Both the position numbers and the translations under genes were made by a program. A stretch of DNA of 51,973 nucleotides from an uncultured Myxococcales bacterium (lineage in GTDB: Bacteria > Myxococcota_A > Polyangia > Palsa-1104 > JAEUJZ01): contig CALMML010000232.1 in assembly GCA_937868485.1 (NCBI GenBank), forward strand, positions 1 through 51,973, given 5' to 3'. Positions 18,281 through 50,497 of the stretch are shown one piece after another; the stretch's first letter is position 1; every line of letters starts with the position of its first letter. Under the pieces are notes generated by a model, which ran no database searches, was not told the DNA's origin, and worked only from the letters and a program-made list of their open reading frames with translations.

Positions 18281-18805
18281 CTACAGAGCAAGCAGATCTT
18301 CGCCGTTGTGCAGCGATTGAACGGGCACGCCCAGCGTCTGCATCTCGTGCTCGCCAAGCGACAGCGACTCGACCATCTCCGCAAACGGATGAACGACGCC
18401 AAACTGCGATGACAGCGCTCGCATGATGCCGTCCCACTCACGCGCGGCCTCCAGCGAGGACTGCAGCTCACCGGCATCGCGCGCATGCGCAGTCCAGGCA
18501 GTTTGCAGCGCGGCTCGTCGCAGCCGATCCGCCGCCGTGAGCAGATACTTGGCCGACGCACGAGACAGCGGCAGACCGCTTTCCCGACGCTCGGACGGAT
18601 TTGCACTGGCCGGCTCGGGCACAACCGCCATCACCATCGCTTGCACTTGCTCGGCGGCGCGACCTCGCTCCAGCCGCTTTTCCACTGGAACCGCAGCAGC
18701 GTGGTGGATGTGTTCCATCACCGTCAGCTCTTTCGCCAGCGCCAGCCAGCGATCGACAGGGAGAGACAACGAAAAACGCTTCGACAACGGACTGGAGGTA
18801 CTCAC
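18281..18805 (-). CDS. Protein of unknown function, largely helical
   Basis: 174 residues, no signal peptide and no membrane helix. The sequence is Ala/Leu/Arg-rich and mostly helical (AAEQVQAMVMAVV, LLTAADRLRRAAL, AREWDGIMRALSS). No known motif is seen. The start is a GTG at 18805. TAACAT, a -10-like box, ends eight bases upstream and no Shine-Dalgarno is present, so the mRNA may be leaderless. It follows the Ppx/GppA gene on the same strand after 77 bases, but has its own apparent promoter. Confidence 0.65.
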   Translation of the reverse strand: MSTSSPLSKRFSLSLPVDRWLALAKELTVMEHIHHAAAVPVEKRLERGRAAEQVQAMVMAVVPEPASANPSERRESGLPLSRASAKYLLTAADRLRRAALQTAWTAHARDAGELQSSLEAAREWDGIMRALSSQFGVVHPFAEMVESLSLGEHEMQTLGVPVQSLHNGEDLLAL

Positions 18806-18813
18806 GAGTCCGA

Positions 18814-18819
18814 ATGTTA
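18814..18819 (-). promoter_or_regulatory. Candidate -10 box (TAACAT) before the 18805 start
   Basis: TAACAT on the minus strand ends eight bases before the GTG at 18805. No -35 is evident. It is one of several -10-like boxes next to start codons. Confidence 0.35.
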
Positions 18820-18882
18820 CCCCTGTGCGCGCAGGTTCGTCCGACTTTTTTCGCCCTGGCTTCCGACGGTTTCAGCAGCGTG

Positions 18883-21954: not shown

Positions 21955-22143
21955 AAGGCCCTCTCCAGACGAGAACACAGAAAATTCCACGTTCCCATCA
22001 TAGGGCGAAATCATCCAAAGGAGCGTCAAAAACCCGCACCGCCTGTTCCAAGAACAGCCAGGCCGACGTCGGGTTCAAGTCAGGTCGGACGGCTTTCGCG
22101 CGTCGAAGCCGCGATTTGGGCTCGCTTACATGAGCGCCCTTTT

Positions 22144-22152
22144 TGCTAGACT
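22144..22152 (+). promoter_or_regulatory. Extended -10 box (TGCTAGACT) abutting the 22160 start
   Basis: TG-C-TAGACT ends seven bases before the GTG at 22160. A poor -35 (CTTACA, about 16 bases upstream of the hexamer) is possible. This box decides the start chosen for the next gene. Confidence 0.5.
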
Positions 22153-22159
22153 CGCCACG

Positions 22160-23407
22160 GTGCGTCGCCACTCCTTCTTCTCGAAATCGTTTGTCGCGTG
22201 CTTGGGTCTGTCGCTGGGCGTTGTGGTGCTGAGCGGCTGTCGGCAAAAAACCCAGCCACCGCCCGTCGCGCCCACACCGCCGGTCGTCGCGCAGACCACA
22301 CCGCCGCCCAAGGTGCCGTTTGTGCGACGAAACATGCCGCGCATCGATCTGCACACGCACATCCTGCTCGGATCGGGACTGCGCGCGGCCCGGCTGTTTG
22401 AGCGCTACGGCATCAGCCTGGCGATCAACCTGTCGGGACCGCCTGCAAATCACGGCTTTGAAGAGTTTATCGTCGACAACCAAGTCGCCTACGGGCACTT
22501 GCATACGTTTACTGGGCTCGACTTTGAAGAAGCGAGCAAGCCCGGGTACGGCGCGCGGATGGCGGAAGCGCTCGTCACGGCCAAGAACGCCGGAGCCAAA
22601 GGCATCAAGATCCACAAAGCGCTCGGGCTGGAATACCAAGGGCCCGATGGAAAGCTGCTCAAGATCGATGATCCGGGGCTCGATCCGGTGTTTGAAAAAG
22701 CAGCAGAGCTGAAGCTTCCCGTCGCGATTCACAGCGGCGATCCGCAAGCGTTCTGGCAAGAGCCGAATCCCAAAAACGAGCGCTTCGACGAGCTGCTCGC
22801 GCATCCCGAGTGGAGCTTTTACGACGCTTACAAGCGTGGTGCCGTTCCGTCGTGGCGAGAGCTGTACGATGCGTTTTTGCGTCGCGTCGCCCGTCATCCC
22901 AAGACGATCTTTATCGGCGTTCACTTCGGCAACGCGCCCGAAGAACCCGCGCTGGTGGCCCAAGCGCTCGATAAGTATCCAAACCTGTACATCGACACCG
23001 CAGCGCGACTTCCAGCGATCGGTCGCAGCGACGCAAACCACAGTCCCGAAACGCTGCGCGCGTTCTTTATCAAGTACCAAGATCGGATCTTGTTCGGCAC
23101 CGATACCGCGCTTTCGCGAGGCGGAACGCCGGCGATGTTTGGCTCGGTGGGAACCGATCCTCCGACGGAAGCTGATGGCGATCGCTTCTTCGATTCGACC
23201 TATCGCTACTTTGAAACCGCCGATACCGACATTCCCAGCCCGACGCCGATTCAAGGCAAGTGGACGATCTCTGGCGTGAACCTTCCCGTCGAGGTGCTGG
23301 AAAAAATCTATTTCAAAAACGCAGAACGGCTGCTTGGCGTGACTGCGCCCAAGTCGCCGCTGCCCAAGCAAGAGCAAGGGCCCGCACCAACGGGTGACGA
23401 GCTCTAG
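22160..23407 (+). CDS. Amidohydrolase-2-like lipoprotein
   Basis: 415 residues with the GTG at 22160. The lipoprotein signal ends in VVLSGC with Cys27, followed by a Pro-rich linker. The body is a metal-dependent TIM-barrel of the amidohydrolase-2 group: RIDLHTHIL (His65 and His67), IKIHKALGL, VAIHSGDP with a further His, and the late LFGTDTALSRG Asp. Relatives include decarboxylases and lactonases; substrate unknown. An in-frame ATG at 22130 would add ten residues, but a -10-like box lies inside that extension, so the GTG is preferred. It is followed after 24 bases by an FKBP isomerase gene on the same strand, a likely operon of envelope proteins. Confidence 0.85.
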   Translation: MRRHSFFSKSFVACLGLSLGVVVLSGCRQKTQPPPVAPTPPVVAQTTPPPKVPFVRRNMPRIDLHTHILLGSGLRAARLFERYGISLAINLSGPPANHGFEEFIVDNQVAYGHLHTFTGLDFEEASKPGYGARMAEALVTAKNAGAKGIKIHKALGLEYQGPDGKLLKIDDPGLDPVFEKAAELKLPVAIHSGDPQAFWQEPNPKNERFDELLAHPEWSFYDAYKRGAVPSWRELYDAFLRRVARHPKTIFIGVHFGNAPEEPALVAQALDKYPNLYIDTAARLPAIGRSDANHSPETLRAFFIKYQDRILFGTDTALSRGGTPAMFGSVGTDPPTEADGDRFFDSTYRYFETADTDIPSPTPIQGKWTISGVNLPVEVLEKIYFKNAERLLGVTAPKSPLPKQEQGPAPTGDEL

Positions 23408-23431
23408 GCACTGATCGTTTCGGAGGAACCG

Positions 23432-23908
23432 ATGTCACATCCCTCATTCCGTTCGCTGTCCCGTCTTCTGAGCGTCTTTGTCGTCGCGGGTGCGATCGGA
23501 ACTGCGGTCGCAGACACCGCACCAGCCAAAAAAGCAGAGCCTGCCAAACCCAGCGCGAGCGAAGGAAAAATGATCACTACACCCTCGGGACTCAAGTACA
23601 TCGACACCCAAGTCGGAACCGGCGCGACCCCCAAAAAGGGCCAGATCGTGCGCGTCCACTACACCGGCAAGCTCGCGAACGGTCAGAAGTTTGACAGCTC
23701 CGTCGATCGCGGCGAGCCCTTCGAGTTCCAGATCGGCACCGGCCAGGTCATCAAAGGCTGGGATGAAGGCGTGCTTTCGATGAAGGTTGGCGGCAAGCGC
23801 ACGCTGATCATTCCATCCAGCCTGGGCTACGGCGCGCGGGGCGTGGGCGGCGTGATCCCGCCGGATGCAGAGCTACATTTCGACGTCGAATTGCTTGGCG
23901 TAAAGTAA
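23432..23908 (+). CDS. Exported FKBP-type peptidyl-prolyl isomerase
   Basis: 158 residues. A signal peptide ends near AVA-DT, then a Lys/Ala/Pro linker, then a complete FKBP domain at about residues 48-158. Expected active-site elements are visible: VRVHYTGKLANGQKFDSS, FQIGTGQVIKGWDEG and YGARGVGG. It catalyses cis-trans isomerisation of prolyl bonds and probably helps folding in the periplasm. GGAGGAACC lies just before the ATG. It is placed between a lipoprotein hydrolase and a TerB-like gene, with 24 and 52 base gaps. Confidence 0.95.
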   Translation: MSHPSFRSLSRLLSVFVVAGAIGTAVADTAPAKKAEPAKPSASEGKMITTPSGLKYIDTQVGTGATPKKGQIVRVHYTGKLANGQKFDSSVDRGEPFEFQIGTGQVIKGWDEGVLSMKVGGKRTLIIPSSLGYGARGVGGVIPPDAELHFDVELLGVK

Positions 23909-23914
23909 ATAAGG

Positions 23915-23958
23915 TACGCTCCATTACGATCAGGCGTGGATTTGCACGCTGGAGCGTA
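23915..23958 (+). promoter_or_regulatory. Hairpin hiding the ribosome binding site of the TerB-like gene
   Basis: TACGCTCCA (23915-23923) pairs with TGGAGCGTA (23950-23958), and GCGTG (23934-23938) pairs with CACGC (23945-23949) around a six-base loop. The two stems stack on the right arm, with a ten-base bulge on the left. The Shine-Dalgarno GGAG (23951-23954) is inside the outer stem, two bases before the ATG at 23961. This predicts translation that depends on opening the hairpin. No U-tract follows, so it is not a usual terminator. Confidence 0.6.
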
Positions 23959-23960
23959 GT

Positions 23961-24743
23961 ATGAGCCCTGAACGAACCCCGCCGATTCCGGCCACCACCG
24001 AGACCGGAACACCGCCCACATCCAAAGAAACGCCGCCCTCGAAGCGTCGGCATTCCCTGTCGCATATCATCGAAGCCTTTCGCGGCGATCGTCCGTCGGG
24101 AAGCTCGCCACTGCCATCGGGCGTAACGCCCAGTCCGCTGGCTGCGCAGGATGTTCCTTCGCGACTGACGCCCAGTCCTTCGCGGCTGACGCCCAGTCCT
24201 TCGCAGCTTTCGCCACGGCCTTCGCAGCTTTCGCCCAAGACTGCTCCGAAACGGCACATCTCGCAGGTGATTGAGACGCTGAAGATGCCCAGTCGCGAGC
24301 TGGCCGAGCGCCTGGTTCGACTCGGTTTCGACAGCGAGACCGCGTGCGTGCTGCACATCCTGCCGCTCATCCAGGTTGCCTGGGCCAACGGGGAAATCAG
24401 CCGTCGCGAGCGCAGTCGCATCCTGCAAGTCCTCAAGGTGCGCGACATTCCCGAAGGCAGCCGCGCGTTCATCATGTGTGAGTCGATGCTCACCACGCGC
24501 CCGACGGAAGCCTTCCTGCACGCCAGCCTCGAGTGCCTGCGCGACATCCTGCACAGCAGCCGAGGCAACGCCGCACGCGAAGAACGTCAGCTCATCGATC
24601 TGTGCGTCGAGATCGCGGAAGTCTCGGGCGGCCTGTTCGGACTGCATCGCACCGTCAGCACCACCGAGCGCGCCGTCATCGCCGAGATCGCAGCCACACT
24701 CGGTGACGAAGCCCAGTCCGAGCTACGCCGCATCCTCAACTAA
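23961..24743 (+). CDS. TerB-like helical protein with Pro/Ser-rich repeat N-terminus
   Basis: 260 residues. Residues 1-95 are disordered, rich in Pro, Ser and Thr, and include four 7-residue repeats of the form PSxLxPS (residues 66-93). Residues about 98-260 are all helical and resemble the TerB/DUF-type fold of tellurite-resistance-like proteins (LPLIQVAWANGEISRRERSRI matches the first helix with the acidic position after WANG). Such domains are thought to act at membranes, often with metal ions. No membrane helix is seen. The gene follows the FKBP gene after 52 bases, and a hairpin covers its Shine-Dalgarno. The role is inferred only from fold. Confidence 0.75.
   Translation: MSPERTPPIPATTETGTPPTSKETPPSKRRHSLSHIIEAFRGDRPSGSSPLPSGVTPSPLAAQDVPSRLTPSPSRLTPSPSQLSPRPSQLSPKTAPKRHISQVIETLKMPSRELAERLVRLGFDSETACVLHILPLIQVAWANGEISRRERSRILQVLKVRDIPEGSRAFIMCESMLTTRPTEAFLHASLECLRDILHSSRGNAAREERQLIDLCVEIAEVSGGLFGLHRTVSTTERAVIAEIAATLGDEAQSELRRILN
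24156..24239 (+). repeat. Four 21-bp tandem repeats inside the TerB-like gene
   Basis: Four adjacent 21-base units run from 24156 to 24239, all starting CCTTCGC. Units 1 and 2 differ at one base; units 3 and 4 form a second closely similar pair. Each adds seven codons in frame, so copy-number change would lengthen the linker without a frameshift. Confidence 0.85.
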
Positions 24744-50466: not shown

Positions 50467-50497
50467 CAATAAGAGGCGTTTTGTATGCCTCTTATTG
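50467..50497. terminator. Inverted repeat between convergent genes, likely bidirectional terminator
   Basis: CAATAAGAGGC (50467-50477) and GCCTCTTATTG (50487-50497) pair perfectly over 11 bases with a nine-base loop. It begins 13 bases after the S9 peptidase stop and ends 15 bases before the integrase stop. There is no long T-run, so terminator is the favoured but not the only reading; an attachment core is the alternative. Confidence 0.6.

Follow-up and report, generated by a model that had tools for sequence, protein, structure and literature searches.

The locus and the inverted repeat

The window (the whole stretch of 51,973 nucleotides analysed here, from an uncultured Myxococcales bacterium) carries on its + strand an amidohydrolase-like gene followed by an FKBP gene and a TerB-like gene. 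The FKBP gene (23432-23908, + strand; stop codon at 23906-23908) encodes an FKBP-type peptidyl-prolyl isomerase (PF00254, E 8.4e-39), and the element described below follows it, as the original prediction had said. The TerB-like gene (23961-24743, + strand) encodes a protein of 260 aa, and its ATG at 23961 is backed by conservation in three species. The label 'TerB-like' is reasonable though weakly grounded: DUF533 is the protein's single Pfam match, and its E-value of 9e-4 falls short of the Pfam cut-off. A 21-bp tandem repeat of four copies (24155-24237) encodes TPSPS-type repeats in this protein, the length of which is 260, 268, and 274 aa across the three species, with visibly different repeat numbers. 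Two other species of the window's genus, G002 and G001, were used in the comparison. Close orthologues of the TerB-like protein were found only in these two in a search of 58 related genomes, with identities of 95% over residues 66-260 in G002 and 80% over residues 66-259 in G001. When weaker matches are counted, 19 of the 58 genomes have one. Within the order, 5 of 14 genomes have a match, which is weak in two of them.

The inverted repeat begins with a 5' outer arm TACGCTCCA (23915-23923, + strand), which is the exact complement of the 3' outer arm TGGAGCGTA (23950-23958, + strand), and the outer stem thus comprises nine perfect pairs with no mismatch. The 3' outer arm holds the Shine-Dalgarno sequence GGAG (23951-23954). 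A bulge of 10 nt (23924-23933, + strand) leads to the inner stem, whose arms GCGTG (23934-23938, + strand) and CACGC (23945-23949, + strand) form five pairs in the window around a loop of 6 nt (23939-23944). The outermost of these five pairs is broken in both relatives, and the other four are invariant. The nine-base and five-base stems and the ten-base bulge are exactly as predicted from the sequence. GGAG does lie inside the outer stem; the two-base distance to the ATG belongs to the end of that stem, and GGAG itself is six bases away.

Repeat statistics give the hairpin no special standing. When arms of 9 bp or more and loops of 3-40 nt are required, the window yields eight perfect inverted repeats, and ten shuffles of it yielded 9-15. 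Among 363 starts, that of the TerB-like gene is the only one whose Shine-Dalgarno region is covered by a perfect stem of 9 bp or more, and one other start has a stem of 8 bp. The 363 starts are the 366 called ones minus three with less than 60 nt upstream, and the G002 element is absent from this count, its start having been missed by the gene caller. Taken alone, one stem of this kind close to a start is within chance for a window with 40 called genes. The 81-nt region folds somewhat better than its shuffles (z -2.2; 5 of 200 were as good), and the fold concerned differs from the one drawn above. The longest inverted repeat of the window by the inverted-repeat scan is one of 11 bp at 50467-50497, which lies between two convergent called genes and is possibly a two-way terminator.

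Conservation of the element in the genus

The evidence that the hairpin element is no chance feature comes from its conservation in three species of the genus, and not from repeat statistics. It lies upstream of the TerB-like gene in both G002 and G001, and the conserved block spans 54 columns (23913-23966, + strand), 41 of them invariant in the three species. Over the aligned block, G002 is 86% and G001 75% identical to the window. Since G002 is so close to the window, the comparison effectively covers two lineages. If the nine outer and the inner four pairs are taken as paired, none of their 26 columns varies, while 5 of the 18 unpaired ones (the remaining columns within columns 3-46 of the element alignment) are invariant (Fisher 1.7e-7). 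For the 5' arms alone, 13 of 13 columns are invariant (4e-5). The hexamer TACGCT at the start of the 5' outer arm is common to all three species, while the G001 flank before it does not align with that of the window. Judged from these alignments, the element is real and conserved. Conservation for coding reasons was rejected from the same alignment, in which the variable block alters most codons while the arms stay unchanged.

Compensatory changes were looked for; 13 of the 14 pairs never vary, and the remaining one, the fifth of the inner stem, is disrupted in G002 and G001 alike. Covariation is therefore uninformative on structure, because no pair varies among the outer nine and the inner four.

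No convincing further copy turned up when a covariance model built from the three elements was run on 289 genomes of the class. Listed matches with an E-value of at most 0.5 occur in 41 of these genomes, the three known ones included, and the best match outside the known elements has an E-value of 0.003, about the chance level for that many searches. In the six nearest genomes the same model gave no convincing further copy, with a best other E-value of 1.5. Scans for the exact two-arm pattern returned 56 stretches in genome contigs, among them L085 and L096 on contigs as long as those of G002 and G001, and 12 viral stretches, and a shorter pattern occurs at 18 places in the six nearest genomes, three of which are the known elements. 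Of the other 15, ten were folded, and two checked for open frames, L024 and L031, were both rejected as lying inside long ones. L031 has a near-identical counterpart in G001, and its match is probably shared coding sequence.

A candidate promoter in the 5' arm

The 5' outer arm contains a candidate -10 hexamer, TACGCT (23915-23920, + strand), with a conserved GG just before it, as is usual in the genus. A candidate -35 hexamer, TTGCTT (23891-23896, + strand), precedes it by 18 nt and falls within the 3' end of the FKBP gene. G001 has TTGAGT instead, at a spacing of 17 nt from its TACGCT, and the DNA there does not align with the window. The GG before TACGCT, which lies outside the stem, is invariant, and this fits a promoter.

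The -10 type was characterised from the genus itself. In the window and 460 kb of G002 (contigs C55, C102, and C48; L150-L152 and L154-L173), TANNNT peaks 6-8 nt before the start codon, with 33 of 279 genes that have a gap of at least 30 nt. The background elsewhere is about two per position, with 9 at one position, 45, and the 33 include five cases of one gene seen in both genomes. Leaderless transcripts thus seem to be common in the genus, as far as this positional signal can tell, and the signal is useful independently of the hairpin question. Two further loci of the window touch on the same subject. Another leaderless-like start belongs to a minus-strand gene that begins at 18805: the stretch upstream of it (18806-18865) shows strong conservation in the three species, and TAACAT lies 8 nt before its GTG in the window. 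Within 22130-22165, the ATG at 22130 of the amidohydrolase-like open reading frame is not conserved in G002 or G001, and a conserved GCTAGACTCGCC lies downstream of it. The gene caller places the G002 start at a GTG just past GCTAGACTCGCC, and the gene may be leaderless with a later start.

A -10 model was built from 32 leaderless-like sequences that had been selected for TANNNT, and the -35 weights were set by hand. G is usual just ahead of the -10 in this model (22 of 32 and 17 of 32). TTGAGT-17-TACGCT is the top site upstream of the TerB-like gene in G001, with a score of 13.2 (about 1e-5 of 103,862 null positions). TTGCTT-18-TACGCT is second best in the window and G002, with a score of 8.7 (3.4e-4); there TAAAGT at -60 outscores TACGCT with 9.9, and has no G001 counterpart. 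A score of 8.7 is reached in 8 of 323 in-gene stretches and 13.2 in none of the 323, while upstream stretches reach them in 60 and 4 of 271, respectively, a count that includes the source genes of the model. In upstream regions, TTG most often precedes TANNNT by 22-24 nt (9, 10, and 8 of 221 sites, compared with 0-8 for other distances). TACGCT is only mildly enriched upstream of genes: 11 occurrences, counting the present one, compare with an expectation of 5.3 and with 8 on the opposite strand. A plain consensus scan requiring 9 of 12 bases found no sigma-70 promoter in this region of the window or in that of G001.

Distant TerB-like homologues were also considered, with 17 of 18 loci used (L019 was dropped as it has stops inside). 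In 8 of the 17 loci, TANNNT occurs 6-8 nt before a candidate start, with 72 starts examined. A promoter hard against the gene is therefore common among the TerB-like homologues.

The most likely reading is that the element combines a promoter with a ribosome site and that the halves of the two that face each other are complementary. On the sequence evidence, we hold with moderate confidence that the repeat would be a compact promoter-plus-ribosome-site module, with the -10 in the 5' arm and the Shine-Dalgarno sequence in the 3' arm. TACGCT would serve as the -10 of a sigma-70-type promoter of the TerB-like gene. From the usual -10 spacing, transcription would start at about 23926-23929, in the bulge at an invariant ACG, and the leader would be about 32-35 nt long without the outer 5' arm. 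The 9-bp stem that hides the Shine-Dalgarno sequence would then be impossible in the mRNA made from the gene's own promoter, because this mRNA begins past the outer 5' arm; the stem would be possible only in RNA that reads through from the FKBP gene. Several findings count against the promoter-plus-ribosome-site reading. TAAAGT scores higher in the window and G002, the consensus scan is empty, TACGCT is enriched only mildly, the RNAalifold consensus is the drawn fold, and short G002 RNA that starts a few bases later is predicted to be less open (see below). The invariant bases around GGAG exceed the needs of a plain ribosome site, and a match of nine bases between the arms is left unexplained by a promoter alone.

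Predicted folding, alternative readings and known systems

The drawn fold is the minimum free energy (MFE) structure in none of the three species. Over 62 nt, the drawn fold and the MFE are -21.0 and -23.1 kcal/mol in the window, -15.5 and -22.4 kcal/mol in G002, and -15.5 and -20.4 kcal/mol in G001, differences of 2.1, 6.9, and 4.9 kcal/mol, respectively. The MFE structure of the window pairs the Shine-Dalgarno sequence only partly and in another register, and 4 of the 18 pairs of this alternative are broken in one or two of the three sequences. The RNAalifold consensus is the drawn fold with two extra pairs.

The cost of opening the region from the Shine-Dalgarno sequence to the AUG at 37 C, with the 5' arm included, is predicted as 7.1-11.4 kcal/mol in the window, 11.7-12.0 in G002, and 4.5-5.3 in G001. 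In RNA that begins at the conserved ACG, the corresponding values are 5.1, 4.9, and 4.1 kcal/mol, and starts 2 and 4 nt past the ACG give 4.4-7.3, the G002 RNA from 23930 being less open at 7.3. The median opening cost over 134 Shine-Dalgarno genes is 6.9 kcal/mol; all three values for RNA from the ACG fall below it, which favours the promoter reading, and so does the range of the arm-containing G001 RNA. Scrambling the 5' arm changes the cost from 10.7 to 7.8 +- 2.0 in the window, from 11.7 to 8.9 +- 2.1 in G002, and little in G001 (4.9 to 4.6 +- 0.4). Opening GGAG alone costs 1.5-2.4 in long and 2.6 in short RNA of the window, 5.0 and 3.4 in G002, and 2.9-3.6 and 2.8 in G001. The models thus predict hiding of the start region in the two close species and not in the third (G001), and in the window they suggest that the AUG side is held more than GGAG.

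The promoter-plus-ribosome-site reading has a functional version, a possible read-through lock, and the probabilities of the two overlap. The lock would depend on the origin of the transcript: with the promoter in the 5' arm, RNA reading through from the FKBP gene would be silenced, and RNA from the gene's own promoter would be translated. We put it forward tentatively, and the complementarity of the arms may instead be incidental. The invariance of all 26 paired columns against 5 of 18 unpaired ones is in its favour, as are the higher opening costs of the arm-containing RNA of the window and G002 relative to RNA from the ACG and the fall of those costs when the arm is scrambled. It is also in favour of the lock that no terminator-like site occurs on the + strand within 23650-24050, nor in the matching G001 stretch; a terminator-like site on the - strand lies at 24046-24034. 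However, the long and short RNAs of G001 are nearly alike and respond little to scrambling, and GGAG alone is no harder to open in the long RNA of the window than in the short one. Complementarity between the -10 and the Shine-Dalgarno sequence is not general in the genus (50 genes, mean 3.34 versus 3.32 shuffled, the 9-bp case itself being absent from this count), and the support comes effectively from two lineages with no covariation.

The leader that would arise from the gene's own promoter has a further predicted feature. The invariant ACGC-TGGA-GCGT (23946-23957, + strand) could fold locally into an alternative hairpin that has GGA in its loop and, for the isolated 12-mer, an energy of -2.9 kcal/mol. 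The ACGC-UGGA-GCGU hairpin occurs in 7 of the 12 MFE structures computed for the short RNA of the three species, with two starts and two temperatures each. The leader could therefore expose GGA in a loop if it folds in this way, and the hiding stem and the GGA-loop stem compete for the same GCGT strand. CsrA binds GGA in hairpin loops. A search for CsrA found none in any of the 14 genomes of the order, with the control positive in 3 of 14 named genomes, and a CsrA-regulated leader was rejected on this absence.

Alternatively, the conserved bases could form a DNA operator, in which a regulator binds repeated ACGCT/AGCGT boxes, one over the -10, with the palindrome ACGCTGGAGCGT over the ribosome site. 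ACGCTGGAGCGT is an invariant 5-2-5 palindrome around the Shine-Dalgarno sequence; the upstream box is invariant as well, and a box over the -10 would suit repression. Nevertheless, the occurrences of ACGCTNNAGCGT (14, 15, and 11 in the three genomes) show no enrichment over the reversed control (16, 21, and 17), and the centres of the outer and inner repeats do not coincide as those of a single dyad would. We consider an operator doubtful.

The original prediction took the hairpin as the layout of an RNA thermometer or of a switch opened by a ligand or protein on the gene's own mRNA. The layout itself holds in part, as the repeat is real, GGAG is buried on paper in a perfect stem, the outer arms are invariant in three species, and the RNAalifold consensus agrees with the drawn fold. 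The function assigned to it is not supported: the drawn fold is never the MFE, the G001 start is predicted to be open even in read-through RNA, and the 5' arm matches a -10 and probably lies outside the mRNA. In addition, the two middle bases of GGAG in the window RNA are computed to be 0.71-0.99 paired from 4 to 55 C, with no melting over this range. No Rfam match was found up to an E-value of 5 within 23300-24300, a search that an uncatalogued thermometer would escape, and neither a convincing further copy among the listed matches of the class genomes nor CsrA in the order points to a switch. Such a switch is unlikely, to the extent that we give it little weight. Least probable of all is translational coupling, in which ribosomes finishing the FKBP gene would open the stem, since the FKBP stop, although 4 nt ahead of the element in the window and in G002, is 86 nt away in G001, where the element is intact.

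A convincing hairpin that hides a Shine-Dalgarno sequence can thus arise from a -10 box and a ribosome site conserved for other reasons. Because the two can mimic such a hairpin, information on the transcription start site is needed before a riboswitch or thermometer is called.

RNA thermometers usually have imperfect stems. The element shares with the ROSE and fourU thermometers a Shine-Dalgarno sequence paired with an upstream strand, and differs from them in its perfect 9-bp stem, its middle Shine-Dalgarno bases, which in the window are predicted to stay largely paired up to 55 C, and its lack of an Rfam match. With the leaderless-like genes of the genus and the distant homologues it shares the TANNNT type of candidate -10 close before the start. 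In contrast to the leaderless-like genes, the candidate -10 here ends 40 nt before the ATG, which gives room for a short leader with a Shine-Dalgarno sequence.

The closest likeness in anatomy is to the leaders of phage T4 gene e and I-TevI. As described for these two (PMC3014915, PMC2988022), the ribosome site is buried in a stem, and the DNA of its 5' strand contains a promoter; the long RNA is closed, and the RNA made from the arm promoter, which is without that strand, is open. A literature search of limited reach turned up no bacterial chromosomal case plainly on point by title, and no claim of absence is made. That a lock of the T4 type guards a bacterial chromosomal gene here, with the RNA from its own promoter refolding to show the ribosome site in a loop, is a suggestion we make with somewhat more reserve than the lock in general. 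The layout that the element would share with them is a stem over the Shine-Dalgarno sequence with promoter DNA in its 5' strand. Unlike gene e and I-TevI, the present element lies on a bacterial chromosome, has a candidate promoter of the sigma-70 type, and has no known temporal programme; its start region is predicted to be open in one of three species, and its lock function is only proposed. If the lock is true, a phage arrangement would also serve, in bacteria, to separate the translation of two neighbouring genes.
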